Assembly: GCF_024641065.1 (NCBI RefSeq)
Contig: NZ_JAHEDV010000002.1
Span: 124,001 to 188,000, forward strand
Length of the DNA: 64,000 nucleotides
DNA from: Rhodoluna sp.
GTDB taxonomy: Bacteria > Actinomycetota > Actinomycetes > Actinomycetales > Microbacteriaceae
Direction of reading: 5' to 3'
Shown one piece after another: positions 6,725 to 23,110 of this stretch (its first letter is position 1; each line of letters begins with the position of its first letter). The notes under the pieces are model-generated. The model ran no database searches and was not told the origin of the DNA. It saw nothing but the letters and a program-made list of their open reading frames with translations. Both the position numbers and the translations under genes were made by a program.

Positions 6725-9043
6725 ATGGCACTTTTCAAAAAGAAGCAGAAGTTCGTTCCTTCAGGCGTTGACACCACCGCCGAGGCGGCAGTTACTCCAG
6801 ACAAGGCACAGCCTTTTGTTGAGCTCGGTCTAAAGCTAGAAGAATACGCACGCATCCGTGAGATTTTGGGCCGCCGCCCAACCTCATCTGAGTTGGCAAT
6901 GTATTCAGTTATGTGGTCTGAGCACTGTTCATACAAGTCTTCAAAGATCTACCTTCGTCAGTTTGGCGAGAAGGTCACCGACGAGATGAAGAAAGACCTC
7001 ATGGTCGGCATGGGCGAGAACGCCGGTGTGGTTGACATCGGCGAGGGCTGGGCTGTGACCTTCAAGGTTGAGTCACACAATCACCCTTCATACATCGAGC
7101 CTTTTCAGGGTGCAGCAACCGGTGTTGGCGGCATTGTTCGCGACATTTTGACCATGGGTGCCCGCCCAATTGCTGTCATGGATCAGCTTCGCTTTGGTGC
7201 GCCTAACGACCCAGACACCGCTCGCGTGGTTCACGGCGTGGTTGACGGCATCAGTTTCTATGGAAACTGCCTGGGTCTGCCAAACATCGGTGGCGAGACT
7301 GTTTTTGACAAGGTTTATCAGGGCAACCCGCTAGTTAACGCACTTAGCGTTGGCGCGCTTCGCCACGAAGACCTAAAGCTTGCAAAGGCTTCAAACCCTG
7401 GCGACCTAGTTATTTTGTTCGGTGCCCGCACCGGCGCCGACGGCATCGGTGGTGTTTCAGTGCTTGCATCTGAGACCTTCGATTCAACCGGCCCAGCAAA
7501 GCGCCCGGCAGTTCAGGTTGGCGACCCGTTCGCCGAGAAGGTTCTAATCGAGTGCTGCCTTGAGCTCTACCACGCACAGGTTGTTGCCGGAATTCAAGAC
7601 CTTGGCGGTGCCGGCATTAGCTGTGCAACCTCAGAGCTTGCTTCAAACGGTGGCGCCGGAATGCGCGTTCAGTTGCAAAAGGTTCTAAAGCGCGACGAGT
7701 CACTAACCCCAGAAGAAATTCTGATGTCAGAGTCTCAAGAGCGCATGATGGGCATCGTTCCTAAGAAAGACCTAAAGGCTTTCGAGGCAATCGTGAACAA
7801 GTGGGAGGTTGAGTACTCGGTTATCGGTGAGGTTATCGGCGAAGACCGTCTCTACATCAACTGGGGCGAAGAAGAGATCGTCAACGTGCCACCTCGCACC
7901 GTTGCTCACGATGGCCCAGTTTATGAGCGCCCAGTTGCGTTCCCTTCATATCAAGACGCACTGAACAACGACACCGTTCACTCACGTGGTCTTTACCGCG
8001 CGAACGACAACTCATCTGAGCTTGCAGCCCAGTTGGTTCAGATTGTTTCAAGCCCTAACCAGGCCGACAAGGGCTGGATCACCAACCAGTATGACCGCTA
8101 TGTTGGCGGCAACACCGCGTTGGCTCAGCCAGATGACTCAGGCATGGTTCGCGTTAGCGAAGAGACCGGCCTTGGCATTTCAATTGCCACGGATGCAAAC
8201 GGTCGCTACTGCTACCTAGACCCATATCAGGGCGCTCGCTTGGCATTGGCCGAGGCATACCGCAACGTTGCAGTTGGTGGCGCAAAGCCAATGGCTGTTA
8301 CCAACTGTTTGAACTTTGGTTCACCAGAGAACCCTGAAGTTATGTGGCAGTTCAAGCAGGCAACCGCAGGTTTGGCCGACGGCTGTCTTGAGCTTGGCAT
8401 TCCGGTTACCGGCGGTAACGTCTCGTTCTATAACCAGACCGGCGATGTAGCTATTCACCCAACCCCGGTTGTTGGTGTGCTTGGTGTTATCGACAACGTA
8501 GCCCGCCGCATTCCTAGCGGTTGGCAAGACGAGGGCCACAACATCTATCTTCTTGGTGTTACCAAAGATGAACTTGATGGCTCAGTTTGGTCTGAGGTTA
8601 TTCACGGTCACCTTGGTGGTCGCCCACCAGTTGTTGACCTTGGTTTTGAGAAGCAGCTTGGCGATGCTCTTGCAGCAGCAAGCGAGCAGGGCCTATTGGC
8701 TTCGGCTCACGACCTATCAGAGGCCGGTTTGGCTCAGGCTCTAGTTGAGTGCACCCTGCGCTTCAACATGGGTGCTCGTGTTTGGCTAAACGAGATCAGC
8801 GAGCGCGATGGCGTTGACCGCACCTGTGCTCTGTTCTCAGAGTCAACTGGTCGCGTGCTGGTTTCGGTTGGTCGCGAAGACGACGTTAAGTTTGTTGGCC
8901 TGTGTGAAGCTCGCGGAATTCCGGTGCTGCGCATTGGTGTAACCGACAACAGCGGCCAGCTTGAGATTCAAGACATTGCCACCTGGCAGCTAAGCGACCT
9001 TCGCGGTGCTCACGAGGCAACCTTGCCTGAGTTGTTTGGCTAA
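6725..9043 (+). CDS. purL: Phosphoribosylformylglycinamidine synthase subunit PurL (small type)
   Basis: 772 residues, the length of the small PurL that needs separate PurS and PurQ. Near the N-terminus it has [12 protein letters not shown]. It then shows the nucleotide-binding HNHPSYIEP and [12 protein letters not shown] and two AIR-synthetase-like halves, the second with [10 protein letters not shown] and [11 protein letters not shown]. It makes FGAM from FGAR and ATP. Codon use here (GGC, GTT, CGC, AAG) is strongly biased and is a good reference for the host style, in contrast with the island that follows. Confidence 0.97.
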
Positions 9044-9045
9044 TC

Positions 9046-9264
9046 ATGAAAAAAGTGCTTGGTTTGGCGATGGCGGCTGTGTTTATTGCAGCCCCAATCA
9101 CTGCTGCTCAGCCGGCATTGGCTGTTGATCAGGTTTTTATTCACGATGTGAAAGCCGGGCAGTTCTGCAAAAAAGCTGACATCGGCAAAAAGAAAATTGC
9201 AGACAATGGCGCTCGTGTGAAATGCGTCAAGGATGGCAGCCGTGCGCGCTGGAAGCGCATCTAA
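9046..9264 (+). CDS. Small secreted protein of unknown function
   Basis: 72 residues, two bases after purL. A clear signal peptide (MKKVLGLAMAAVFIAAP, cleavage near ALA at about residue 26) is followed by a basic 45-residue domain with two cysteines: GQFCKKADIGKKKI and VKCVKDGSRARWKRI. Similar C-terminal modules occur on actinomycete secreted proteins. No function is known to me. It probably rides on the purine transcript and is followed by a terminator. Confidence 0.7.
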   Translation: MKKVLGLAMAAVFIAAPITAAQPALAVDQVFIHDVKAGQFCKKADIGKKKIADNGARVKCVKDGSRARWKRI

Positions 9265-9280
9265 GTAAGTTCGAGAGTTG

Positions 9281-9306
9281 AGGCCCTGGCGGATTCGCTG
9301 GGGCCT
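9281..9306 (+). terminator. Terminator of the purine operon
   Basis: AGGCCCTGGCG (9281-9291) pairs with CGCTGGGGCCT (9296-9306) over 11 pairs with two G-T, loop GATT. The T-run after it is weak. It separates housekeeping DNA from the defence island. The remaining bases 9307-9514 hold no gene and no repeat that I can recognise. Confidence 0.65.
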
Positions 9307-9514
9307 TGACTTATTGTCTGGTTAATTTTCTTAATGGCATCATTCACCCAGTCGAGGCAACCGAGCCGAAACTGCAATGTTCGGGGACATGCTTCGCAAG
9401 TGAAGCACGATGGGCAGATTCCCAATCATTTTTACCGCTTGTGGAATCAAATCGAAATGTTCGTCTGTCAATAATGTCTGACTGCAATGCTATCTTTAGC
9501 CATTGGGGGGAACT

Positions 9515-10531
9515 ATGAAAATCGAACTTAAGCCAATAGCGCCTGGCAGTGATTGGGTCGAAGCTGGTGCCTGGTTTAAGTCGTTTGTAAATCTCGGAGT
9601 CCAACTCGCGGAGGCGACCGCTTCGCCTAATTTTCACATCAACAAAATTCTTGTAGCGTGCCCGAAGCGAGAATTCGTCTCGGCAGCATTGGCTTTCGGT
9701 TATTCAATTCAGAAATTTCGATCAGGTCAGACGCTCCTTAAGAATGTTGAACTTGAAGCCGTATTTGACCTAGAAACGGGTCAAATCCTAAGAATCGAGA
9801 GGAAGCCCGGCCTGGGCAGTTCAGATTTGCACATTCAGGATGTCGCCCTCGAGTCTGTAACGTCGGCAAATTCATCTGAAGTAACGTCTGTTCGAATCAC
9901 GATTCAGGCAAATGGCAGTCAGACGCCGTTCATGGTGCTGGAACGGTCTCGCATCGCGAGCCTTTCAGTTCTTCCAATGGGTTTTCCAACTGGTTTGCAC
10001 AAACTTCCGGTTCCGCCCGCCGGCAAACTCAGTCAAGAAGTACCAGCAATACGCTGGAACTCACAAGCCTCACCTGGACTGGTTATTTATGGCGAGGTCG
10101 ATTATTTCCGCGAGCAGGCCTCTACAGGTGTGCGGTACGCACCCATGCAAGCAGTCCTTGGCACGTCCGAAACGATTCTCGAAGACATGGGGCGGATCGA
10201 TTACGCAGAAAATAAGTTCCCGCATTTTGTGAATCTATTCGAACCGGTGAATTCCTTCCCTAAACTCAGCGATTGGCCACATAGTTTGCCGGGCCTATGC
10301 GAATGGGTGGTCTTGGACGGTAATCGCGCCTCGACCAAACTTTCTGCAAAAGAGGCACTCATTGACCGACGGGTTCTGTCTATCGTCGAAATGGGCATCC
10401 CCAGGTCTCAGGGCAAAGCATTGGCAGCTTTCACAGAACAAACGGCTAATCTAAAGCGCGTTGATGCCTCGACCCTGCTGGCATGGACACCACCAGCCGG
10501 AGTGCAAATTTGGGCTTGGAGCAACAAATGA
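9515..10531 (+). CDS. Unknown protein, first gene of DrmAB-containing defence operon
   Basis: 338 residues from ATG 9515, preceded by GGGGGG at 9505-9510. A TTG at 9503 would place the start inside that ribosome site. I do not recognise a named domain. The part KILVACPKREFVSAALAFGY resembles the beginning of proteins that handle substrate at a helicase-like core. Further on, PLPGLCEWVVLDGNRAS-type strands and a helical C-terminus are seen. There is no signal peptide and no membrane segment. It overlaps the next gene by ATGA. Position and size suggest it could be the N-terminal half of a DrmE-like protein, split in two here, but that is inference. Confidence 0.6.
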   Translation: MKIELKPIAPGSDWVEAGAWFKSFVNLGVQLAEATASPNFHINKILVACPKREFVSAALAFGYSIQKFRSGQTLLKNVELEAVFDLETGQILRIERKPGLGSSDLHIQDVALESVTSANSSEVTSVRITIQANGSQTPFMVLERSRIASLSVLPMGFPTGLHKLPVPPAGKLSQEVPAIRWNSQASPGLVIYGEVDYFREQASTGVRYAPMQAVLGTSETILEDMGRIDYAENKFPHFVNLFEPVNSFPKLSDWPHSLPGLCEWVVLDGNRASTKLSAKEALIDRRVLSIVEMGIPRSQGKALAAFTEQTANLKRVDASTLLAWTPPAGVQIWAWSNK

Positions 10532-12111
10532 CGAATCTCGTAGAGCAAGTTAATCGCCTTTACCTAAATGCTGCGGAAGCCGTGGCTGTTCCGAAATCAT
10601 GGAAAATCGATTTTTACTCAAGCCCCAAAGGCACAGAGCTAGCGACGCAATTAGCCGAACTTAGACGATCGTCATTTGATTGGCAGGACGCAACCTTTTC
10701 CAATCTCGCAATCGCCCTCAACGTAATTAAGACATATTCAAGATGCCTTCTCGCCGGCGAACCAATGGGCGACTTTTGGACGAACGAACTTTCGGCCCTG
10801 GAGAGTGAAATCTTCGCCACTCGAAACTACCTCCCGGCCTCTCAACTAGCGTCACTCGAGCAACTTCTGAGCTTCCTTCGACAGAACATCGAAGAGATTG
10901 CACGACTTCAGTCCGAGAGTATCCGCGCCGCCGTTGACGCTGTCGATGGCCGGGTCTTACTTGTCCCCGAAACGGCGAGGCTTAGGCATAAAGCAGATGA
11001 CTGGGTCGCTTCACATGGACTGAGCGACAAAGTCACAGTGCATTCTTTAAGAGATGTGAGAATTCAGCTCTTTGAACCTTTCGAATTAACCCTCTTCCCT
11101 TCATCGCCTTCCGCTTATTTGAACAGAGAACAATTTGCATCACACCTACGTGCACTTCTCCTAACTGGCATCACCCCAAAAGCTACTTTCGTTAGCCCCG
11201 ATTGGTTCATGTTCAATCGAGACCTTCAACTTGACAGGCACCTGATGCCAGGATTTGAGTTGGCCAACTTGCCACCGGTAGAAATATCTACACCGCTCCA
11301 CGTGGACATCTCGCTGGTTCCGGAAGCACCTACACCTTCGGATGTATTTGAGGACTGGATCCCGCGCCACGCCTCAGGAGACTACGCAACCTATGAATCA
11401 GGGGGAGACCAATCATGCCGAGTCATCGCCATTGGCGAAGAATTGGTTTTCCCGGTAGAAGCAGATTCGAAGAAAGTTTCGGTTTTTGAGTTCAACGAGA
11501 AGGCAGATGCATGGCAAATAGTGTTCAAGAATCCATTCAAAGACCTTCACCCAGGAGACTATCTAGTCGCGTGCGTCGATAGATCTGAATCTCAGGCTTT
11601 GCGCGAACGCGCTGCTAAAGACATGGGCGACGATTTTCATCGTTATGTGTCATCACAGATTCATTGGAAAGGGCTTCTAAAAGCAAAGATCGCACAACTG
11701 GGAATCAGCACAGTCGAGGCCGAGCTAAAAGGCGCCGGCGTGGAAAAATACAGCCGTGCGCGCAACTGGGTGGACGAAGAACAAATTGACCCCTTATTAA
11801 ATCGAGATTTCGAAGTCCTACTTCATTGGCTAGGGCTTGGCAAGTCGGAAGCAAAACTTGTGATGGAACTGGCGAAATCCATGGATGGTGCCCGCATTCA
11901 AGCTGGCAGGAATGCCGGCAATGCCATTGCTCAGAGTCTTGATGAACAGGAGTTGTTGGCTCTGGATAAAGGCCAGGCACTTGAAGTAACCCTTGAAGAC
12001 CATGGAGATGCTACGTACCTGCTGGCACCAATCATGGGCGTCGGCGATGACGTGATTATGTTCAGGAGTTCACAAGTTAGGCGCGTCGTTGCAGGAAAGT
12101 TTGAGGTCTAA
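10528..12111 (+). CDS. Unknown protein, second gene of DrmAB-containing defence operon (possibly DrmE-like C-terminal part)
   Basis: 527 residues from ATG 10528, which overlaps the previous stop (ATGA) and has GGAG 6 bases upstream. An upstream ATG at 10483 is less likely. It appears to have an N-terminal helical region, a middle alpha/beta region (GRVLLVPETARLRH; KATFVSPDWFMF), a small beta barrel ending LHPGDYLVACVDRSES, then a helical part with W-K-x-x-L and SRARNWVDEEQIDP. The latter resembles the winged segment at the end of DrmE-type proteins, but I cannot confirm this. It is co-transcribed with the helicase genes. Confidence 0.6.
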   Translation: MTNLVEQVNRLYLNAAEAVAVPKSWKIDFYSSPKGTELATQLAELRRSSFDWQDATFSNLAIALNVIKTYSRCLLAGEPMGDFWTNELSALESEIFATRNYLPASQLASLEQLLSFLRQNIEEIARLQSESIRAAVDAVDGRVLLVPETARLRHKADDWVASHGLSDKVTVHSLRDVRIQLFEPFELTLFPSSPSAYLNREQFASHLRALLLTGITPKATFVSPDWFMFNRDLQLDRHLMPGFELANLPPVEISTPLHVDISLVPEAPTPSDVFEDWIPRHASGDYATYESGGDQSCRVIAIGEELVFPVEADSKKVSVFEFNEKADAWQIVFKNPFKDLHPGDYLVACVDRSESQALRERAAKDMGDDFHRYVSSQIHWKGLLKAKIAQLGISTVEAELKGAGVEKYSRARNWVDEEQIDPLLNRDFEVLLHWLGLGKSEAKLVMELAKSMDGARIQAGRNAGNAIAQSLDEQELLALDKGQALEVTLEDHGDATYLLAPIMGVGDDVIMFRSSQVRRVVAGKFEV

Positions 12112-12115
12112 TAGC

Positions 12116-13795
12116 TTGGAAATCACACCAACTTCATTTTCAGAACACCCCAATGCCTCCCCAGGCGAGCGGAAAATATTTAAGAAACTCAGGGACAGCG
12201 AGAAAGGCAGGGACTGGATAGTCCTGCACAGTTTGGATTTGTTAAGCCATGTAACCAAGACTCAATCCGAAGCCGATTTTGTAGTCTTTATACCTGGAGT
12301 CGGTGCACTCGTCTTAGAAGTGAAATCTGCAAAATCAATATCCCATGGGCCTGCAGGTTGGAAAATCGGCAATAAGGTCGAACAACGAGGCCCTTTCAAG
12401 CAAGCCAATGAAGCAATGCGTTCGATAATGGAATATTTGGATGAAGTTGGTGTCGGCTACCAAGATGTACCTTTTGTGTATGCCGTCTGGTTCACAGACA
12501 TAACGCGTAGTGGCATCCATGCATCTATAGCTTGGCAGGATGAGCAGATACTCTCATCGGAAGACTTAGCCGGTGACATTGTGGACGTGCTTTCGAACGC
12601 AACAAAGAGGCTAGTTGCTGGGCTAAAAATGTATAAGCCCCTTCAACTGGCTCCACAAAGCAAGTTGAAGCAAATTTCTCAGGCTTTGTTGCCGCGCTTC
12701 ACTGCATATCAATCCCCCATTGCACGCCAGAAAGAGGTGAAAGACTTTCTGGACTCGGCGCTTCAAGAACAACTCGAAATGATGAAGCTTGTCGGCAGCC
12801 TGAAGGCCGTCCTACTTCCCGGCATGGCCGGCACAGGCAAGACTCACATCGCTCTACAAGCTGCTCGCCAAGCGCATGAACGTGGAGAACAAACGCTCTT
12901 CCTCTGTTACAACAATATGCTTGCCCAGCACCTAAGGGGCCTTATGGTCAATTTCCCTTCAGTGAGGATTGTTTCTCTACACGCCTTACTGCTCGAGATA
13001 GCCGACATTTCGGTCCCGAGCGATGCAAATCAAGACTTCTGGGAGCACACACTCGTCTCAGAGGCTCTTAAGAATGCCGTCCAATTCGCTGAGGAAAATC
13101 CTTTTGACACGCTTGTTATTGATGAAGCACAGGATATTGGCACAACCGACTACTTGGTATTGATCGATGCCCTTTTGAAGCATGGGCTTGCTGGTGCAAA
13201 GGTTTTGGCTTGTGGTGACTTCGAAAACCAAGGCGTTTACCTATCCGGCAAGGAAAGCCTGGCCAACTACGTAAGTGCAATACCTGGATTGCAGGTTCTC
13301 TCGCCGCTGCTAACCAATTGTCGTAATACGCAAACTCTTGGGGATTACCTGGTTGCCTTGTTGAGAATGAATCCTGAGTATGACGCGTACAGGCGCGAAG
13401 ATTCAGATAGCAAAGTAAATTCACAAATTGTGAGTTCCGAGGCCAAATTCGGCTCCGTCTTGAGCAATGAAATTTACGAACTTACTCACAAATTCAGCCC
13501 TGAACACGTCGTTCTCCTAAGCGCACAAAAACAACTCCTTATCGCTTTGGCGGAAAGGTCGAAGATCGATTACACGGAGCTTCGAAACCCTCGGCCTGGG
13601 CGAATTCGGCTAGGGAGCATCCAAGAGTTCAAGGGACTCGAAGCGATGGCCGTAGTGATAGTCGAATTTGATTCACCTAATCCTTCGCTAACGGAAACGT
13701 TCTACGTTGGTGGGACAAGAGCATTACACGACTTCACCTACATAATCACGGAAACAAAACATGATGCACTAGTGCAGGGAGCTCAAAATGGTTAA
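12116..13795 (+). CDS. NERD nuclease-like domain fused to a superfamily-1 (UvrD-like) helicase
   Basis: 559 residues from TTG 12116 (GAGG 9 bases upstream). An earlier TTG at 12089 is possible. Residues about 15-75 match the NERD pattern: an early GE, then EADFVVFIPG and LVLEVKSAK, the D and E-x-K of a PD-(D/E)XK fold. The helicase follows: Walker A GMAGTGKT (about 236), Walker B VIDEAQDI (about 333), an N-x-RNT motif (about 400), QEFKGLEA (about 503) and GGTRALHD (about 535). The stop overlaps the next start by 8 bases. NERD-helicase fusions are known in DNA repair and defence. Canonical DISARM lacks one. Confidence 0.85.
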   Translation: MEITPTSFSEHPNASPGERKIFKKLRDSEKGRDWIVLHSLDLLSHVTKTQSEADFVVFIPGVGALVLEVKSAKSISHGPAGWKIGNKVEQRGPFKQANEAMRSIMEYLDEVGVGYQDVPFVYAVWFTDITRSGIHASIAWQDEQILSSEDLAGDIVDVLSNATKRLVAGLKMYKPLQLAPQSKLKQISQALLPRFTAYQSPIARQKEVKDFLDSALQEQLEMMKLVGSLKAVLLPGMAGTGKTHIALQAARQAHERGEQTLFLCYNNMLAQHLRGLMVNFPSVRIVSLHALLLEIADISVPSDANQDFWEHTLVSEALKNAVQFAEENPFDTLVIDEAQDIGTTDYLVLIDALLKHGLAGAKVLACGDFENQGVYLSGKESLANYVSAIPGLQVLSPLLTNCRNTQTLGDYLVALLRMNPEYDAYRREDSDSKVNSQIVSSEAKFGSVLSNEIYELTHKFSPEHVVLLSAQKQLLIALAERSKIDYTELRNPRPGRIRLGSIQEFKGLEAMAVVIVEFDSPNPSLTETFYVGGTRALHDFTYIITETKHDALVQGAQNG

Positions 13796-16700
13796 TCAGC
13801 CTCAAAAGCCAGAGACTGCGCGGGAAACGATCTCAAACTACTTAGTTGAACAGATTCTCGGGCCCACTGAATTTTCTTTGTACACCGGCGAGCCTTTACC
13901 AGCGCCGGGTTCCGACGGCAAAGTGCATATTGAGAAGGAATCAAGTCCTCGTGCTTTTCATGACCCTGAAACGGGCTTCCCTATCGTCCAGTATTCCCGT
14001 CCAAAAATGGTTTTTGGAACTGGCATTCTTCACGCACCACGAGAGGAAGAAACTTCCACGCCTAATGAGTCCGAATCGGGCCCTCAGACAGACGCACCGA
14101 GGGATGCTTTCGTAAACGCTCAAGTTCCGGAATCTACGGGAAACTTGACCACTAGTGATTCGGACGAATCGTCAATCGATGAAAGCCAGAAATACCGTCC
14201 AAGCGCAATGGGATTCACAGCACAGTTCACCAATCTTGGCGATTTTGCATTCGAGTTTGAAATCGCTGGTTCAACTTACGAAGAGATAAATGTCCTAATT
14301 GATGGCAAAAGAACCGCGAAATGGTATCGCCGCAAGGCACACTCCGAGAAAGTTCTTGTGCAATGGAGCGAAATTTCGAACCGACGAAATGCTCTCGTAC
14401 CTAAACCAATTCCAGGGGCAATTGGAGAAATTGCAAACCTGCAGCTTAGATGGCGCGAAACTGGTGGACAGGACATTACTGGCTCGACTATCAAGGCTCT
14501 CACCGCCGTAGTAGCGCATAAAGGCGTTGAAGAGGACAAAGAGCTATTCCAATTCTCGATGTCGCTCAAGCTGAACGGAGCTGCTTCTTTCGCATCCGTT
14601 GATGCGGCCAGACTTCTTGATCGAGAGAATCAAGAAGATCAAGAAATCGAATTCCTGTACCGACACATTGGCAATTACGCCTACGGACACGGCATCGCCG
14701 TGGACTGGGAAGAACTGGACGGGGCACCGCCTTCACAGGTAACGACTGCAGTAATTCCATCCTTTTACCAGGAGCGCTTAGAGACAAGCATCTCTGGCCT
14801 TTCGATCAGGATGGATGAGTTGGCCAAGTTTGAACGGATTTCTGCTCGGGTGCCTCTGGAGGAACTAGTCACTAAATACGAACAGTGGATTGGGCAACAA
14901 GACTCAATTCTTGCGGTTTTAACTGGTGACCAACTAGCTATCGGCAAGCGCCTAATTAGCAAGAACAGGCACATTGCCCAGCGAATGCGCAAAGGCCTGG
15001 CAATCCTGTTTGAAAATAAGGATCAACGAATATTTCAGGCATTTCAACTCGCAAACAAGGCGATGTACCTTCAGCAACAAAGAGGGCTTATCCCTGAGCG
15101 AAAAATCATAGATAAAAAAGGGGCTCCGATTCAGTATCCACCTATCGTGGAGCCAGATCCGACCGAGTATGGAACCTGGAGGCCATTCCAAATTGGCTTC
15201 ATATTGATGGCAATTGCTGGGATTGTTGACCCAAGCAGCGAAGATCGGGATGAAGTCGACCTTATATTCTTCCCAACGGGTGGTGGAAAAACCGAAGCGT
15301 ATCTTGGTGCAGCTGCAATTCAAATCATATATCGACGACTATGCGACAATGCCCACCACGGAGTCGATGTTCTAATGCGTTACACACTTCGATTGCTAAC
15401 CGTCCAACAGTTCGAACGAAGCTCTGGACTAATCGTCGCACTCGAGCACATGCGTCGGGCACAACCAGAGGTGCTAGGCACTGAGCCAATTTCAATTGGT
15501 GTTTGGCTTGGAGGAGACACCACGCCAAACAGGCGCAGTGTCGCAGTTGAGATTCTAGAAGCAAAGGCTAAGAAATCTGAACCAGCTAATCCCTTTGTCC
15601 TAAAGAAGTGCCCTTGGTGTGGAGCTAAGTTCGCTCGCCGAGAATCTGACAAGAAATGGATTGGTTACAAAAAGAGCACCGAAGGTATTGAGACTCTGCT
15701 TTTCATTTGCGGTGATACAAGTTGCGAGTTCAGCCGCGAAAGCAAAGCACTTCCAATTTGGATTACTGATGACGATGTATACGACAACAAGCCTTCATTC
15801 GTGCTCGGCACTGTCGACAAATTCGCTCAGCTATCTTGGCAGCCAAAAGCGAGAACTCTTTTCAATATTGGTGATGATGGAGTTAGGGTTGGACCACCTC
15901 CGGGCTTGATCATTCAGGACGAGCTGCACCTAATTTCCGGACCATTGGGTTCCCTAGTTGGGCTTTACGAAGGTGTTATCGAATCGTTTTGCACGGACTT
16001 CAGAGACGGCGCAGGGATCAAGCCAAAGATTATTGCCTCTACTGCCACGACACGACGATATGAATCTCAAGTGCACAGTCTCTACGCAAGAAACAAAGTG
16101 ACCTTGTTCCCTCAGGCTATATCTCGAGCAAATGAAACATTTTTCTCATCTGTGAAGCGAACAAATGGAAAAGCTGATCGCGGCACCCTGTATTTAGGTA
16201 TCAACCCAGCCACATATGCAACTGGTCAGTTAGCCACATCCCAAGTAAGCGCCTTCCTGTCGCAGGCCCCTAGCGCATGGGACGGGCCGGCAGAAGAGAT
16301 TGACTACTACTCGACCTCAATGTGGTTCTTCAACAGCCTTAAAGAATTGGGGCAGTCTCTAACGCTTCTGCAGTCGACAGTCGTTTCACTATTGAACGCA
16401 ATGTGGAGGGAAGCAAGGCTCCCAAACAGCAAGACTCGCTCCCTTGAACCGATTATGGAACTTACTGGTCGCATTTCCTCAAAGGAAGTATCCACAGCTC
16501 TAGATGACTTGAAGAGGTCCAATTCAGAGAATGGTTTCGTAAAAACATGCCTAGCTTCCAGCATTATGGAGGTTGGCGTCGATGTATCCCGATTAGGTCT
16601 ACTCACGATTTATAGCCAGCCTAAATTGACAGCCCAATACATTCAGGTTTCAGGCCGTGTTGGACGAAAGCCCGAAAAGGGTCCTGGTCTAGTTGTAATG

Positions 16701-17249
16701 CTATACAACTCGGGGCGAGCTCGCGATAGAAGCGTTTACGAGCACTTTGGTGTTTTCCATAAACGCCTATACGCACAAGTGGAGCCGCTTAGCGTCACGC
16801 CATTCGCAATACAAACGATGGATAAAGGCCTCCGTGGCGCGCTAATTGCGCTTTACCGAATTTACAGCCCGATCGAAGCAAGTCCGACCTATTTGGACGA
16901 AGCTGTTTTCGATCGAGTTGTAGAAATACTCCGTGCCCGTATGAAGTTCCTCAAATCGAGCTTTACCCGACTTGATGACTTTGAAAGGCAAGTCCAAGAT
17001 TTCAAGAATGAATGGATCCAATACAGGCCAATTCAGTGGGTTTACGACTGGCTGCAAGAGCAACCGGATAAGCAGTCAACCAATGCCTCAACGGCGCTTC
17101 TCCGTCGCGGGGCTAGGCCACTCGGTGATATCCGTGGAGACAGGTCAATCACCATTCCACAATCGATGCGTGATGTTGACGGTCAAACGAAGGTAGAAAC
17201 GTCGTCGAATGTTTATAGTTTTGATTCAACTTTAGGAGGCCAGGCCTAA
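13788..17249 (+). CDS. drmA: DrmA-like superfamily-2 helicase (DISARM core)
   Basis: 1153 residues, the length of DrmA. AGGGAG precedes ATG. The N-terminal 450 residues carry an acidic low-complexity stretch (about 80-130). Walker A FFPTGGGKTE is near 496, a zinc-ribbon-like insert CPWCGAKF with a second cysteine pair is near 607-650, and the DEXH box QDELH is near 710. ASTATTRR is near 748. The C-terminal helicase motifs MEVGVDVS and QVSGRVGRK are near 926-958. In DISARM, DrmA pairs with the DUF1998 protein DrmB and loads on phage DNA. The stop overlaps the drmB start by one base (TAATG). Confidence 0.88.
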   Translation: MVNQPQKPETARETISNYLVEQILGPTEFSLYTGEPLPAPGSDGKVHIEKESSPRAFHDPETGFPIVQYSRPKMVFGTGILHAPREEETSTPNESESGPQTDAPRDAFVNAQVPESTGNLTTSDSDESSIDESQKYRPSAMGFTAQFTNLGDFAFEFEIAGSTYEEINVLIDGKRTAKWYRRKAHSEKVLVQWSEISNRRNALVPKPIPGAIGEIANLQLRWRETGGQDITGSTIKALTAVVAHKGVEEDKELFQFSMSLKLNGAASFASVDAARLLDRENQEDQEIEFLYRHIGNYAYGHGIAVDWEELDGAPPSQVTTAVIPSFYQERLETSISGLSIRMDELAKFERISARVPLEELVTKYEQWIGQQDSILAVLTGDQLAIGKRLISKNRHIAQRMRKGLAILFENKDQRIFQAFQLANKAMYLQQQRGLIPERKIIDKKGAPIQYPPIVEPDPTEYGTWRPFQIGFILMAIAGIVDPSSEDRDEVDLIFFPTGGGKTEAYLGAAAIQIIYRRLCDNAHHGVDVLMRYTLRLLTVQQFERSSGLIVALEHMRRAQPEVLGTEPISIGVWLGGDTTPNRRSVAVEILEAKAKKSEPANPFVLKKCPWCGAKFARRESDKKWIGYKKSTEGIETLLFICGDTSCEFSRESKALPIWITDDDVYDNKPSFVLGTVDKFAQLSWQPKARTLFNIGDDGVRVGPPPGLIIQDELHLISGPLGSLVGLYEGVIESFCTDFRDGAGIKPKIIASTATTRRYESQVHSLYARNKVTLFPQAISRANETFFSSVKRTNGKADRGTLYLGINPATYATGQLATSQVSAFLSQAPSAWDGPAEEIDYYSTSMWFFNSLKELGQSLTLLQSTVVSLLNAMWREARLPNSKTRSLEPIMELTGRISSKEVSTALDDLKRSNSENGFVKTCLASSIMEVGVDVSRLGLLTIYSQPKLTAQYIQVSGRVGRKPEKGPGLVVMLYNSGRARDRSVYEHFGVFHKRLYAQVEPLSVTPFAIQTMDKGLRGALIALYRIYSPIEASPTYLDEAVFDRVVEILRARMKFLKSSFTRLDDFERQVQDFKNEWIQYRPIQWVYDWLQEQPDKQSTNASTALLRRGARPLGDIRGDRSITIPQSMRDVDGQTKVETSSNVYSFDSTLGGQA

Positions 17250-19102
17250 TGGTCGAAAACAACGTGAGACAAAGCAGTTTGATTCTTGGGGGTGGGCCTG
17301 GTTCACTCACGGTCCTAAGAGATGGTTCAACAGCGCTTATTCCAGGTATCGACGCCTGGTACGTGACCCCGAAACGTCAGAAGATTGGTGAAAAACAAAG
17401 ACAGAGAATTCCAAATGACGTGATCCTGCGAGACCCATTGCTTGCAGCAAACTTAGGTGTCGATCACTTCGTTTTGCCTCCGGCCGAAGGCGTATCAGAA
17501 GAAGATGACTCCGACTACCTGGACCTCACACTTTTTCCATCTTGGATGATTTGTTATTCCTGCAACAGGATGCGCAAAAACGAAGGACCCCGTCCAAATG
17601 AGTGCCCACATTGCATCTCAGAAGGCAAGAAGGGTCGAAGAATGGTTCAAACCAACTTTGTGATCGCGTGCGAAGACGGCCACTTGGACGAGTTTCCTTG
17701 GGTGGAATGGGTCCACAAGGGCATACGAGGCGCCTGTCCGAATCCAAAAAATTTGATTTTCAAGGCCAATGGCGTTGTGGAACTTAGAAGTCAAAAAATC
17801 GAGTGTCTTGCTTGTGGCTCTTACAGGGACCTTTCCGGCACCAACACCGCAAACCCAGACGGCACTACTGATCTTTCACTGAATCTCCAGCGCGGGTCTG
17901 AATTCCTTTGCAAAGGTTCAATGCCCTGGTTGCAAACTCACCAGAAATCAGGTTGCCAACGACATGTGCGAATGGTTCTAAGAAGTTCAAACAACATTTA
18001 TTTTGCAACTACGGTCAGTTCCATTTTGGTTCCCGAAAATAATGGCGGAGCATCAAAAGCCGTTGAACGCCTTCTAAAAGACCCCAAGAAGGGGAAAATT
18101 CAGGCTTACTTGGATACTCCTCCTCGAAATAACTACCCCCTAGTTGCCCAAATGGTGCTGATGAATGACCCGAACTACTATGAGGGTTTCACTGTCGACG
18201 AACTAGCACAGGGCCTGCAGGAGGCATTCGGCAAAAACCCGCCTCCTCCAAAAACTGACTCAGAGGAAGTCCCGCCATTTGACAGAACCCCCGAATGGAA
18301 AGCACTAATCTCGGCAAGGGAAGAAAGAGATTTAGTTGTTAGGCCCGTCCCCGGTTACGGCAACAACAATCTAGGGATAAGCGACGTGAACGCCGTGCCT
18401 CTCCTGCGGAAGACGACCGCGCTGAGAGGCTTCAGCCGTTTGTTCTCCAAAGATGTAACGGCTTCCATGGGCCGTCAGCTTTTGCGCCGCGACCCAATTA
18501 GGTCCTGGCTGCCTGCAATCCAGCAGAGTGGCGAAGGCATCCTGATCACACTCGACAGTGAGAAGCTGAACAAATGGGCGGCGCAAATCGGTGTCCAGCA
18601 AAGAATCCAACTAATCCAAGACAAACTCCTGAAGAACAACAGGACTATCCCGGGCGGTGAGGCTGAAGCCAAGTTCATACTTCTGCACACGTTCGCCCAC
18701 GTGCTTATTCAGGAACTCGTAATCGAATGTGGCTATACCGCCGCCGCCCTCGCCGAGCGAATCTACTCGAGTGGCGACAAGAATGGAATTCTCATTTACA
18801 CCGCGTCGGCATCAGCTGACGGCACAATGGGCGGACTTGTTGAAATGTCTTCCCCGGAGAATCTGCTTAAGGCAGTTTCAAATGCCGTGACAAACGCGCG
18901 CTGGTGTTCAAATGACCCTGTTTGTATGGGCGACACCACTCATGGAAATTCAGGCTCAAATCTCGCAGCTTGCCACAACTGCTGCCTACTCCCAGAAACA
19001 GCCTGCGAGCATTTCAATGCTGGCTTGGATCGAGGGATGTTGATAGGCGACAGTTCTGGCGCTCAAGATTTCCTTGGATACTTTGATTTCATATCGCGAT
19101 AG
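17249..19102 (+). CDS. drmB: DrmB-like DUF1998 protein (DISARM core)
   Basis: 617 residues, matching DrmB. AGGAGG at 17235-17240 lies 8 bases before ATG. N-terminal zinc-site cysteines occur at about 101-121 (CYSC ... CPHC) and at about 185 (CLACG). The DUF1998 domain is C-terminal, with HTFAHVLIQEL (about 479), IYTASASADGTMGGLVE, and cysteine motifs CSNDPVC (about 552) and CHNCC plus CEHFNAGLDR (about 575-593). DrmB forms a complex with DrmA in DISARM. It is the last gene of the coupled five-gene run; 107 bases separate it from the methyltransferase. Confidence 0.9.
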   Translation: MVENNVRQSSLILGGGPGSLTVLRDGSTALIPGIDAWYVTPKRQKIGEKQRQRIPNDVILRDPLLAANLGVDHFVLPPAEGVSEEDDSDYLDLTLFPSWMICYSCNRMRKNEGPRPNECPHCISEGKKGRRMVQTNFVIACEDGHLDEFPWVEWVHKGIRGACPNPKNLIFKANGVVELRSQKIECLACGSYRDLSGTNTANPDGTTDLSLNLQRGSEFLCKGSMPWLQTHQKSGCQRHVRMVLRSSNNIYFATTVSSILVPENNGGASKAVERLLKDPKKGKIQAYLDTPPRNNYPLVAQMVLMNDPNYYEGFTVDELAQGLQEAFGKNPPPPKTDSEEVPPFDRTPEWKALISAREERDLVVRPVPGYGNNNLGISDVNAVPLLRKTTALRGFSRLFSKDVTASMGRQLLRRDPIRSWLPAIQQSGEGILITLDSEKLNKWAAQIGVQQRIQLIQDKLLKNNRTIPGGEAEAKFILLHTFAHVLIQELVIECGYTAAALAERIYSSGDKNGILIYTASASADGTMGGLVEMSSPENLLKAVSNAVTNARWCSNDPVCMGDTTHGNSGSNLAACHNCCLLPETACEHFNAGLDRGMLIGDSSGAQDFLGYFDFISR

Positions 19103-19221
19103 TGCCGACTAGGTTTATGGGGCCGTATACCTGAATCTTTCAAGCGGGGCAAGAACTAAATGTCTGAGGCTCGAAATAAACTGTAAGCAATGATCCAGAA
19201 AGACGTGACTTGGCCAATTTA

Positions 19222-20103
19222 ATGACTTCGCAAGGTAATGCGCAAGCTACGCCGTTCCTCAAGTGGGCTGGAGGAAAACGCGTTCTAGTCAAGCAAATAC
19301 TGCAGTTTGTCCCCAACGATGTCGACGAGTATTACGAGCCTTTTCTGGGTGCCGGTTCGCTCTTCTTTTCACTGCCTGCAGAAACTCCAAAAATCGTATC
19401 TGACTTCAATGCCGAATTGATTTCTGTTTACGAAACTATCCGGGATGACGTAGACGGGCTCCTACGGGAACTTAGGAAACGGACCAATTCGTTAGAGGAT
19501 TACCTCGAAATACGAGATTGGGACAGAAGCCCCTCGTTTGCACGTCGCTCCAAGACTTCTCGAGCTGCGCGCTTTATTGCCCTGAATCGTCTCGGTTTCA
19601 ACGGACTGTACAGAGTCAACAGCAAAGGCCAATACAACGTTCCTTATGGTCACCCGAAGAAGGTTGATCTCCTGATGGAGGACAACCTCAGGGCAGTATC
19701 AGCATTCCTAAGCGAGACAGACTCAGCTGGTCGCCCAGCTGTTGAATTCCATACAGGGGGCTACAAGGACATTCTGCAGAACGTTTCGAACCCACGAGCG
19801 TTAGTGTATTGCGACCCGCCCTATCACCCTACGACTGCAACCAGCTTCAAGAGCTACACGCGCGACGGCTTCAACGAAGAAAATCAAATTGAACTCCACG
19901 ATGAAGTAGTTCGACTTACCAAACTTGGCGTTCGTGTCTTACTGAGCAACTCAGACACGGAGTTCATTCGAAGGCTTTATTCAGAAAAGTTCTTTACTGT
20001 CAACGAATTGGTTGTTAGACGTGCGATTGCGGCAAACTCGGAGAATCGCGGGCTTTTCACTGAAGTGCTTATTGACAATTTCAAGGCAATCCGAAGGAGC
20101 TAA
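19222..20103 (+). CDS. D12-class DNA N6-adenine methyltransferase (Dam-like)
   Basis: 293 residues from ATG 19222. A TTG at 19210 is an alternative, and neither has a strong ribosome site. TPFLKWAGGKR near the start is the S-adenosylmethionine motif I of Dam/DpnM-type enzymes, followed by EPFLGAGSLFF and the catalytic DPPY near residue 198. The recognition site cannot be read with certainty (GATC is common in the class). The stop abuts the next gene, a predicted nuclease, which is the arrangement of a type II restriction-modification pair. It could also supply self-marking for the DrmAB system. Confidence 0.92.
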   Translation: MTSQGNAQATPFLKWAGGKRVLVKQILQFVPNDVDEYYEPFLGAGSLFFSLPAETPKIVSDFNAELISVYETIRDDVDGLLRELRKRTNSLEDYLEIRDWDRSPSFARRSKTSRAARFIALNRLGFNGLYRVNSKGQYNVPYGHPKKVDLLMEDNLRAVSAFLSETDSAGRPAVEFHTGGYKDILQNVSNPRALVYCDPPYHPTTATSFKSYTRDGFNEENQIELHDEVVRLTKLGVRVLLSNSDTEFIRRLYSEKFFTVNELVVRRAIAANSENRGLFTEVLIDNFKAIRRS

Positions 20104-21402
20104 GTGACTAAGTCGGGGGACAACTGGAAGTTCCTGTTTGAGAAATACAGAATTGCAGAGCATGTCGACAAGCATGGTTACTTCGATATTCTCGCTTCTC
20201 AGTTCAAGGACAACCACCTGGAGGCGCGTCTCCACACGAAGGTTGATCACTCGCACCAGTTGCCTCCAATCATGAAGGCAACTGGGACCTCGATTCTCAC
20301 ACTCACAAATTCATCATGGCGCATCGGTCGTTTTGAGATTTTTGAGAAGCTCCCCGCCTGGACCACACCCGACCATACTGTCAAAACTAAATCCCTGCCT
20401 TCGTGGCTGGAGTCACTAACTCGTAACGGGATTACCGGCGAAGGTGCTTTAGTCAATGCTGCGGCTGCGGCCGACATTCTGAATGATTTTGCCGGCGAAG
20501 CGCTGCTCCCAACCATAACTGGCAAAGGGCGATCGGCGACTTTTGACTTCACAGCACGAAATACCTATGGCGGGTCAACACCAATCAATGTCAAAAGTGC
20601 TCAGATAGAAGTTGATGCAGGATTTGAAGGTAAAAACGCACTAGTCCTACTCGAAGCTAAACGCCACTTGTCCTTGGATTTCAATGTAAGGCAACTTCTA
20701 TATCCGTACTTGACTTTCTCTAGTCGAGTAAAAAAACCCGTTCGCCCGATGTTCATCACACTTGCAAACGATGTTTTCGACATCACAGAATTTGCCTTTG
20801 ACGATCCGACTGAGCTTTCTTCAATCCGCCTAGTGGCGTCTTCAAGGTACATGCTGACGGACTCCCATGTGAGCGAGAAGGAAATTCTTCAAATCGCCCT
20901 GGCAATTGATGTTGGTTCGCATAATAGGGTGTCCCGGGATGCGCCATTCCCACAGGCTGACGACTTTGAGCGAATAATCGACATGACTGAGTTTGTTGCC
21001 GCCGAGCCACGATCAATCGAAGACATTACAAACCTCTACGAGTTTTCTGCCCGGCAGTCTGACTATTATTTCTCCGCTGTTCGTTATCTTGGACTAGGCG
21101 AGATAGTTCGAGGTTCTGATGGACTCCAATACAGGCAAGCTACCTCGCTAGGTTCCGAAATTTCGAAAATGCCTTATGCAGAGAAACGCCTTGAGATGGC
21201 CAAGTTAGTTTTGCAAATACCGGCACTTCGAGAAATATATCTTGCATATTTCGACAGCCTAACCATTATGCCAAGGGCAGCGGCAGAGCGGGTGCTAGAG
21301 AAATGGAGTCGCGATGAAGGAATCTCTGGAGCCACAATAGTACGTAGAACGCAAACGATACTGGCTTGGGTTAGATGGTTGATTGGTTTTGGTAAATCTT
21401 AG
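20104..21402 (+). CDS. Predicted type II restriction endonuclease (PD-(D/E)XK motif)
   Basis: 432 residues from GTG 20104 with AAGGAG 4 bases upstream, immediately after the methyltransferase stop. The beginning (NWKFLFEKYRI, then EARLHTKVDHSHQLPPI) has the look of a family of type II enzymes found next to Dam-type methylases. A candidate active site is D171, then L-L-E184-A-K186 in VLLEAKRH, the classic D...ExK spacing. The C-terminal half is helical and ends in a likely DNA-binding region. No helicase or specificity domain is present. Function is inferred from motif plus partner. Confidence 0.72.
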   Translation: MTKSGDNWKFLFEKYRIAEHVDKHGYFDILASQFKDNHLEARLHTKVDHSHQLPPIMKATGTSILTLTNSSWRIGRFEIFEKLPAWTTPDHTVKTKSLPSWLESLTRNGITGEGALVNAAAAADILNDFAGEALLPTITGKGRSATFDFTARNTYGGSTPINVKSAQIEVDAGFEGKNALVLLEAKRHLSLDFNVRQLLYPYLTFSSRVKKPVRPMFITLANDVFDITEFAFDDPTELSSIRLVASSRYMLTDSHVSEKEILQIALAIDVGSHNRVSRDAPFPQADDFERIIDMTEFVAAEPRSIEDITNLYEFSARQSDYYFSAVRYLGLGEIVRGSDGLQYRQATSLGSEISKMPYAEKRLEMAKLVLQIPALREIYLAYFDSLTIMPRAAAERVLEKWSRDEGISGATIVRRTQTILAWVRWLIGFGKS

Positions 21403-22636: not shown

Positions 22637-23110
22637 ATGAACAAGAAGACACTCCAGGCAATCAAGGCAAACCGCACCATTCACTTAATCGACATCGAGA
22701 ACCTTTGTGGTTCTTGCGATTTGACCATTGCTTCGGTTGAGAATGCTCGCGAGGCATATTTTGCCGCGGCTCAGCCAAACGCTGACGACCTATTCGTTAT
22801 CGCTGCCTCAAACCACAACCAAGAGGCAGCTGCCTTTGGTTGGCCCAATGGCAAGCACGTCTTTCGCTCGGGCCAAGACGGTGCCGACATCGAACTTGCT
22901 CTAGTGATGATCAACGAGCACCTAGAACAGCGCTTTCAAACTGTGGTGCTAGCCTCTGGTGATGGCGGCCTGGCCCCTTTTGCCGAGCACCTCATTCAGT
23001 TGGGCAGCGAACTTAAGGTGGTTAGCCTCGGTCGCTCACTCTCACACCAAATGCGTGCCCTGCACTGCCCAATCTTGAACATCGAAGAAACCTTCGGTCT
23101 AGCAGCTTAG
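22637..23110 (+). CDS. NYN (PIN-like) domain protein
   Basis: 157 residues with GAAGGGGG before ATG. The acidic residues of a NYN/PIN-like RNase fold are visible: LIDIEN (about 18-23), GADIELAL (about 83) and VLASGDGGLAP (about 104), with ASNHN between. NYN proteins are predicted metal-dependent RNases. A small acidic protein follows after 9 bases on the same strand. Confidence 0.72.
   Translation: MNKKTLQAIKANRTIHLIDIENLCGSCDLTIASVENAREAYFAAAQPNADDLFVIAASNHNQEAAAFGWPNGKHVFRSGQDGADIELALVMINEHLEQRFQTVVLASGDGGLAPFAEHLIQLGSELKVVSLGRSLSHQMRALHCPILNIEETFGLAA

Follow-up and report, generated by a model that had tools for sequence, protein, structure and literature searches.

By which nuclease could an operon related to the defence island system associated with restriction-modification (DISARM) destroy DNA if it lacks DrmC? 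The question is raised by an island at positions 9515-21402 of a 64,000-nucleotide stretch of DNA from the actinobacterium Rhodoluna sp. (G000:C23:124001-188000, that is positions 124,001 to 188,000 of contig NZ_JAHEDV010000002.1), which as a whole is called the window. It belongs to a draft genome of 1.43 Mb in 33 contigs that is 91% complete. We regard it as reasonably probable that the first five genes of the island are a DISARM-related defence module of its own lineage, in which, as judged from sequence, a NERD-helicase would be the nuclease in the place of DrmC and DrmE would be split. All seven open reading frames (ORFs) of the island are on the + strand; their starts were assigned mechanically, and P1 is read from the ATG at 9515.

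9515..10531, + strand: P1, 338 amino acids (aa), predicted N-terminal part of a split DrmE-family protein
10483..12111, + strand: P2, 542 aa, predicted C-terminal part of the split DrmE-family protein
12089..13795, + strand: NERD-helicase, 568 aa, NERD nuclease domain fused to a UvrD-like superfamily 1 (SF1) helicase, proposed effector
13788..17249, + strand: DrmA, 1153 aa, YprA-like superfamily 2 (SF2) helicase
17249..19102, + strand: DrmB, 617 aa, MrfA Zn-binding (DUF1998-type) protein
19210..20103, + strand: Dam-family D12 N6-adenine methyltransferase, DpnM-like, local and outside the conserved module
20104..21402, + strand: type II restriction endonuclease (REase), DUF6996/DUF6997/DUF7226, local and outside the conserved module

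The genes of the five-gene core overlap by 49 bp (P1/P2), 23 bp (P2/NERD), 8 bp (NERD/DrmA) and 1 bp (DrmA/DrmB). A gap of 107 bp separates DrmB from the Dam-type methyltransferase, and the REase frame begins on the base after the methyltransferase stop codon.

Nine proteins of the window, among them the seven of the island, were searched against Pfam, NCBIfam and PADLOC. A preliminary description of this DNA, made from the sequence alone, had recognised a DrmA-like helicase directly before a DrmB-like DUF1998 protein, and the proteins starting at 13788 and 17249 do match these families. DrmA scored 759.6 bits with NF038325 of NCBIfam, which is under the equivalog cut-off of 950, and 625.9 bits with DrmA of PADLOC; it also matched Helicase_C. 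DrmB scored 391.0 bits with NF038324 (cut-off 240) and matched PF09369 with an E-value of 1.4e-6. Both constituents of the DISARM core, a DrmA-family helicase and an adjoining, separate DUF1998-type DrmB, are thus present.

P1 and P2, which had been listed as two unrecognised proteins, had no above-threshold family in Pfam and NCBIfam, and PADLOC gave no match to them at an E-value of 1. Profile matches with relatives (loci are numbered with L, genomes with G) argue against new components. At L048, a DrmE-family protein (NF038316, 263.1 bits, cut-off 80) stands before NERD, DrmA and DrmB, and a one-piece (fused) DrmE occupies the P1-P2 position in 16 loci. In profile-profile comparisons, P2 aligned to DrmE columns 381-918 (E 1.1e-35, probability 99.9%) and P1 to columns 64-348 (E 2.3e-5, probability 76%); the two regions are collinear and do not overlap. 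The repeat with separately made alignments gave E-values of 1.6e-35 for P2 and of 8.4e-5 for P1 (probability 60%). P1 scored 49.7 against DrmE and at most 18.9 in the controls, which were six other families, reversed P1 and 12 column shuffles. NF038316 also matches two P2 proteins, that of G016 (E 9.3e-7) and that of L101, the latter from position 316 onwards and, with 63.4 bits, under the cut-off. Finally, L090 contains a natural two-ORF DrmE of 342 and 570 aa, which cover profile positions 4-331 and 327-865. Because the profile matches are ordered and non-overlapping, because 16 loci carry the fused form and because L090 is broken at the same place, P1 and P2 are taken, by homology, to be a DrmE-family protein whose N- and C-terminal parts come from separate, overlapping genes.

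This kinship concerns the DrmE family in the broad sense. The class-2 DrmE model NF038323 had no match to P1 or P2 at an E-value of 1, and the class-2 model DISARM_DrmE did not exceed 37 bits, against a cut-off of 250, for the fused relatives tested. As a single query, P2 of the window found matches in only two of 396 Actinomycetota genomes, its own included; its kinship therefore rests on profiles. None of the P1 proteins tested (from the window, L070, L072 and L101) matched any model in its scans. In the models, which suggest an SF2 helicase lacking Walker A, P1 takes the place of RecA-like lobe 1 and residues 27-271 of P2 that of RecA-like lobe 2, into which a Hef/XPF-like helical segment is inserted. 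The split DrmE is probably an ATPase-dead, SF2-helicase-like scaffold or sensor. Against PDB sequences, the profiles of P1, P2 and fused DrmE gave nothing credible (best E 0.032).

The third protein of the core contains a NERD domain (PF08378, 2.5e-10) and several P-loop/UvrD_C_2 matches of an SF1-type helicase; its PADLOC matches are RTasNERD-Hel (77.5 bits) and C3a187 (48.1). A NERD-helicase fusion coupled to the core had been described before, and domain matches and gene overlaps agree with this. In 60 selected orthologues, E61, D63 and K79 are found in 60/60 and E77 in 59/60; we take these to be the positions expected for NERD catalysis. In the helicase part, the Walker A lysine and the DExQ motif are conserved in 60/60, and the eight tested positions are invariant.

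The absence of drmC from the locus, likewise claimed before, was confirmed: the phospholipase-D-like (PLD) nuclease DrmC had no match among the nine window proteins scanned (Pfam, NCBIfam, PADLOC), and a script profile found no operon DrmC in 36 rows with the five-gene order. Among 86 loci with enough flank, 53 have NERD, 12 have an operon DrmC, 21 have neither and none has both (Fisher p 2.3e-6). For the 30-locus Actinomycetota survey alone, the corresponding numbers are 7, 14, 9 and 0 (p 0.0073). Here, DrmC was counted only on the same strand and 3-8.5 kb after the DrmA start; the script profile was built from Actinomycetota sequences, so that divergent forms may escape it, and a strict PLD motif recovered only four of the 12 DrmC loci. 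The 86-locus table omits 24 of 110 loci because of insufficient flank, and the 30-locus survey omits L059, in whose stretch there is no DrmA. Of the different effector module postulated before, one part stands: with DrmC missing and a NERD-helicase present, a different nuclease is plausible. The other part does not, as P1 and P2 appear to be parts of DrmE and not novel components.

Related loci show further arrangements. In L131 (7217-17099, Eggerthellaceae), DrmE, DrmA and DrmB are followed by a NERD-helicase and then by a C5 cytosine methyltransferase (C5 methyltransferase). The related DrmAB loci L050, L052, L051 and L054 of Actinomycetota have a UvrD/HelD-like helicase directly after DrmB, to which L050 and L052 add a NERD-helicase before DrmA. 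Bacillales operons with P1, P2, DrmA and DrmB and without NERD-helicase are L095, L099, L101, L104, L105, L113, L114, L116, L119 and L122. L097 (8054-13141) has DrmA in two pieces about 1.5 kb apart and is otherwise a five-gene locus.

The gene set had been called unusual, and it had been proposed to check how often the order recurs. According to script profiles, the order P1-P2-NERD-DrmA-DrmB is found in at least 36 rows corresponding to at least 35 non-redundant loci from seven phyla, the window included, so that the set is not unusual; L112, from the same genome as L055, is kept in the 86-locus table and excluded from the 35. These comprise 24 loci from Actinomycetota (with the window), six from Pseudomonadota and one each from Dormiibacterota, Acidobacteriota, Myxococcota, Verrucomicrobiota and Armatimonadota. 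The relatives were the best 80 of 568 from a contig scan with a four-sequence DrmA alignment, and the frequencies outside Actinomycetota rest solely on these. Among them, the closest DrmA sequences are those of L068 and L069, with 46 and 44% identity in the best segment. DrmB matches occur in 30 of 396 Actinomycetota genomes (E 0.001), and P2 is present in three of 67 genomes of the genus, including that of the window.

A quick DrmA tree was calculated from 107 rows, with three DrmE-DrmA-DrmB-DrmC loci chosen as outgroup. Loci with split DrmE fall into one group (51 rows, support 99) and those with fused DrmE, together with L090, into a neighbouring one (30 rows, support 90); L057 (split) is outside both. 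On this tree, the split/fused label requires at least four changes.

The pairwise distances of the five proteins across the 35 loci correlate with r 0.926-0.983 (NERD versus DrmA, 0.966), and none of 999 permutations reached these values. High distance correlations are usual for genes of one operon. A C5 methyltransferase match is contained in the fetched stretch of 28 of the 35 five-gene loci and absent from seven; the contig of L125 starts at P1, and its upstream side lies outside the stretch searched. Of the 14 loci with DrmC, none has such a match. For the 28 loci, the distances of the five proteins correlate with those of the C5 methyltransferase with r 0.364-0.399. The five genes therefore form one unit with a loose METHYLTRANSFERASE, and the C5 methyltransferase does follow the module, if only weakly. 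Seven C5 enzymes were scanned; the best PADLOC match was DrmMII for three (L094, L102, L123) and DruM or MTase_II for four. In the genome of the window, which is 91% complete, PF00145 (cytosine methyltransferase) gave no match at an E-value of 0.001. The earlier statement that there is no cytosine methyltransferase is hence supported, but the trait is shared by only seven of the 35 five-gene loci.

Class 1 DISARM consists of drmD, drmMI, drmA, drmB and drmC, class 2 of drmE, drmMII, drmA, drmB and drmC. With class 1, the module shares DrmA and DrmB as separate adjoining genes, but DrmD, DrmMI and DrmC found no match among the nine window proteins scanned. With class 2, it shares DrmA, DrmB and a DrmE-family protein, and most of its relatives have a C5 methyltransferase, some of them DrmMII-like. 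In contrast to class 2, the module of the window has no DrmC and a NERD-UvrD helicase directly before DrmA, its DrmE is divided between two genes and stays far short of the class-2 DrmE model, and neither a C5 methyltransferase match nor a DrmMII was found in its genome. DrmA and DrmB are thus present, whereas DrmC, DrmD/DrmMI, a match to the class-2 DrmE model and DrmMII were not found; the module is therefore assigned to a DISARM-related lineage that is neither class 1 nor class 2. The DISARM relationship postulated in the preliminary description is supported by the DrmA and DrmB profiles and the recurrent gene order. Closest in layout are the fused DrmE-NERD-DrmA-DrmB loci (L048, L094, L127), which have the same operon with a one-piece DrmE and fall into the neighbouring DrmA-tree group; no system name was found for them, and NCBIfam names their first gene DrmE family protein. 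The available text of the Shield paper states that two DISARM subtypes share drmABC and that DISARM-like operons with an RmuC-type gene exist (PMC10270631).

Other systems resemble the module in single components. As far as described in the available text of Bell et al. 2025, which introduces ARMADA, BRIGADE and TALON (PMC12458937), TALON consists of a YprA helicase with fused DUF1998, a NERD nuclease and TPR-CSD plus TBP genes, and NERD is named only with TALON. The YprA-type helicase is common to TALON, ARMADA and the module, the NERD-type nuclease to TALON and the module, and a UvrD-type helicase, there with an N-terminal toxin domain, to ARMADA II (same source). In the module, however, the DUF1998-type protein is encoded by a separate gene, with the MZB domain in DrmB, and TPR-CSD, TBP, PglX and BrxHII are absent among the nine proteins scanned. 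DrmA scored 15.3 bits against BrxHI/BrxHII and only 14.8 bits against DruE of Druantia; DruE is a helicase with a fused DUF1998, whereas a protein of its own carries the MZB domain here. For Mokosh I and Nhi-like systems, NERD is named in the available part of PMC10952713. No description of the operon was found in the full-text literature searched, which covered bioRxiv in part and few subscription journals and did not include the founding DISARM paper (Ofir 2018).

Homology and gene order suggest defence activity, complex formation, an effector role and an order of events, from which the following mechanism may be proposed. By analogy with what has been proposed for DISARM of Serratia, DrmA and DrmB would be a DNA-loading translocase that is loaded at free 5' single-stranded ends of incoming DNA and then travels along the phage DNA. 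The split DrmE, as scaffold or sensor, would bridge or license the DrmAB step, and the NERD-helicase would unwind and cut the DNA, standing in for DrmC. Host DNA would be spared as it offers no free 5' single-stranded ends and, in relatives that have one, by the nearby cytosine methyltransferase. Since no cytosine methyltransferase was found in the genome of the window, protection there might come from DNA structure alone or from the adjacent Dam-type enzyme. In the available text of Bravo et al., it is proposed that unmodified DNA with a 5' overhang activates Serratia DrmAB, the ATPase of which is weaker on methylated DNA; DrmC failed to co-purify, can be dispensed with and is often absent, which leaves open the DISARM route to DNA degradation (PMC9142583). 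A more far-reaching version, which we put forward tentatively and hold at a little under even chances, is that the module represents a third, widespread DISARM-like class, with NERD-UvrD as built-in effector, DrmE as an inactive XPF/Hef-like SF2 scaffold split at the lobe junction, methylation as a loose, exchangeable accessory, and self-discrimination mainly by DNA structure.

Several observations weigh against the assignment of a NERD-type effector module with a split DrmE. The match of P1 to DrmE is modest, the Foldseek fold matches of the P1 and P2 models are weak, and the QxxGRxxR motif, present in only 52 of 103 DrmA sequences, does not discriminate. The distances of the C5 methyltransferase, with r below 0.4, also exceed all 999 permutations. 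The exclusivity of NERD and DrmC partly reflects lineage, as similarity to NERD-type DrmA was the criterion by which the 80 loci were selected; moreover, the five-gene loci L080 and L087 have a weak PLD-type match on the opposite strand, some kilobases away from the operon. On the DrmA tree, the small group of the window joins ten NERD-less Bacillota loci (support 97). Thirteen P1-P2-DrmA-DrmB loci (11 from Bacillota, L057 and L097) were classed as lacking NERD, although L097 does have the gene and has a broken DrmA; NERD is therefore not obligatory.

One could imagine a canonical class 2 DISARM in decay, which has lost drmC and drmMII, in which drmE was split, and in whose operon the NERD-helicase is by chance present as a separate defence gene. 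The kinship of DrmE, the C5 methyltransferases in 28 of the 35 relatives, with DrmMII as best match for three of the seven scanned, and the dozen related loci without NERD would fit. We nevertheless consider it unlikely, given that the five-gene set persists across seven phyla with NERD co-varying with DrmA, that the three DrmE-DrmA-DrmB-DrmC loci, albeit as chosen outgroup, are far off on the DrmA tree (branch support 100), and that the class-2 DrmE model stays so far below its cut-off on fused DrmE. The operons without NERD would also fit a functional DISARM-like system that uses the NERD-helicase as a helper for processing or regulation and leaves the destruction of DNA to host enzymes or, in the window, to the adjacent REase; recruitment of other nucleases is proposed in the available text of Bravo et al. 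(PMC9142583). The conservation of the NERD active site and the lack of a counterpart of the REase in other loci make this quite improbable. A module for DNA repair or recombination rather than defence can hardly be expected: the kinship of DrmA, DrmB and DrmE, the patchy presence of P2 in the genus and of DrmB in Actinomycetota, the adjoining restriction-modification (R-M) genes and the variable site after purL all oppose it. In its favour, NERD and UvrD domains are not specific to defence, and MrfA of the YprA family acts outside defence according to the available text of PMC12458937. The DISARM-related module with a NERD-helicase in the place of DrmC is therefore preferred.

The methyltransferase-nuclease pair noted earlier behind the core is present as type II R-M genes. 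The methyltransferase scored 226.7 bits with TIGR00571, and its best PDB match is the DpnII methylase 2dpm (1.6e-56); the REase matched DUF6997 (5.8e-49) and REase_II of PADLOC (259.5 bits) and had no PDB match at an E-value of 1. Single-sequence profiles found no counterpart of the pair in the stretches of other loci; it looks like an ordinary local type II system outside the conserved module. In L055 (13540-18373, G016), the five genes and a C5 methyltransferase are followed by a fragment-like ORF of an SNF2-type helicase (ZorD/SCO1167-like matches) and further defence-like ORFs. The island of the window is adjoined at 22637-23110 by an NYN-domain protein (PF01936, 6e-6).

The gene preceding the core is purL (6725-9043). 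The stretch after it (9044-9514 in the window; congeners L151, L153, L155, L157) varies within the genus and often contains R-M-like or other accessory genes, so that the site looks like an insertion hotspot. In L151, the 3' end of purL is repeated 4.2 kb downstream (243 nt, 94.7% identity), and shorter, weaker repeats occur in L155 and L157; a search for such an integration trace near the island of the window found none. The island DNA had no near match among plasmid records. P2 of L072 had no match in 50,697 phage records and three matches in 72,556 plasmid records; P2 of the window had one plasmid match. On the plasmid pROB02 of Rhodococcus opacus B4 (L158, NC_012521.1), which is typed as mobilizable, a matching P2 is followed by NERD, helicase and DUF1998 genes; P1 before it is assigned by position only, and Vsr and NaeI-family genes are located downstream. 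On plasmid 1 of Nostoc sp. HK-01 (L159, AP018319.1), a helicase gene is preceded by a gene weakly matching P2 (22.9%); a transposase lies between the latter and an upstream gene, which by its position may be P1.

What DrmE adds is left open in the available text of Bravo et al. (PMC9142583); the module offers a fold for DrmE that can be tested. In addition, it distinguishes five co-varying genes, which are constant, from a methyltransferase that can be exchanged. Present libraries detect the system poorly, and such systems may be undercounted. For example, PLSDB annotates DrmA and DrmB of the pROB02 operon as 'helicase-related protein' and 'DUF1998 domain-containing protein'. With regard to the question of how DISARM destroys DNA, the NERD-helicase is a concrete candidate nuclease within DrmC-less operons, the active-site residues of which are conserved. 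The module would thus be a widely distributed DISARM-related variant, which provides a testable proposal for DNA destruction in DISARM-like systems without DrmC.

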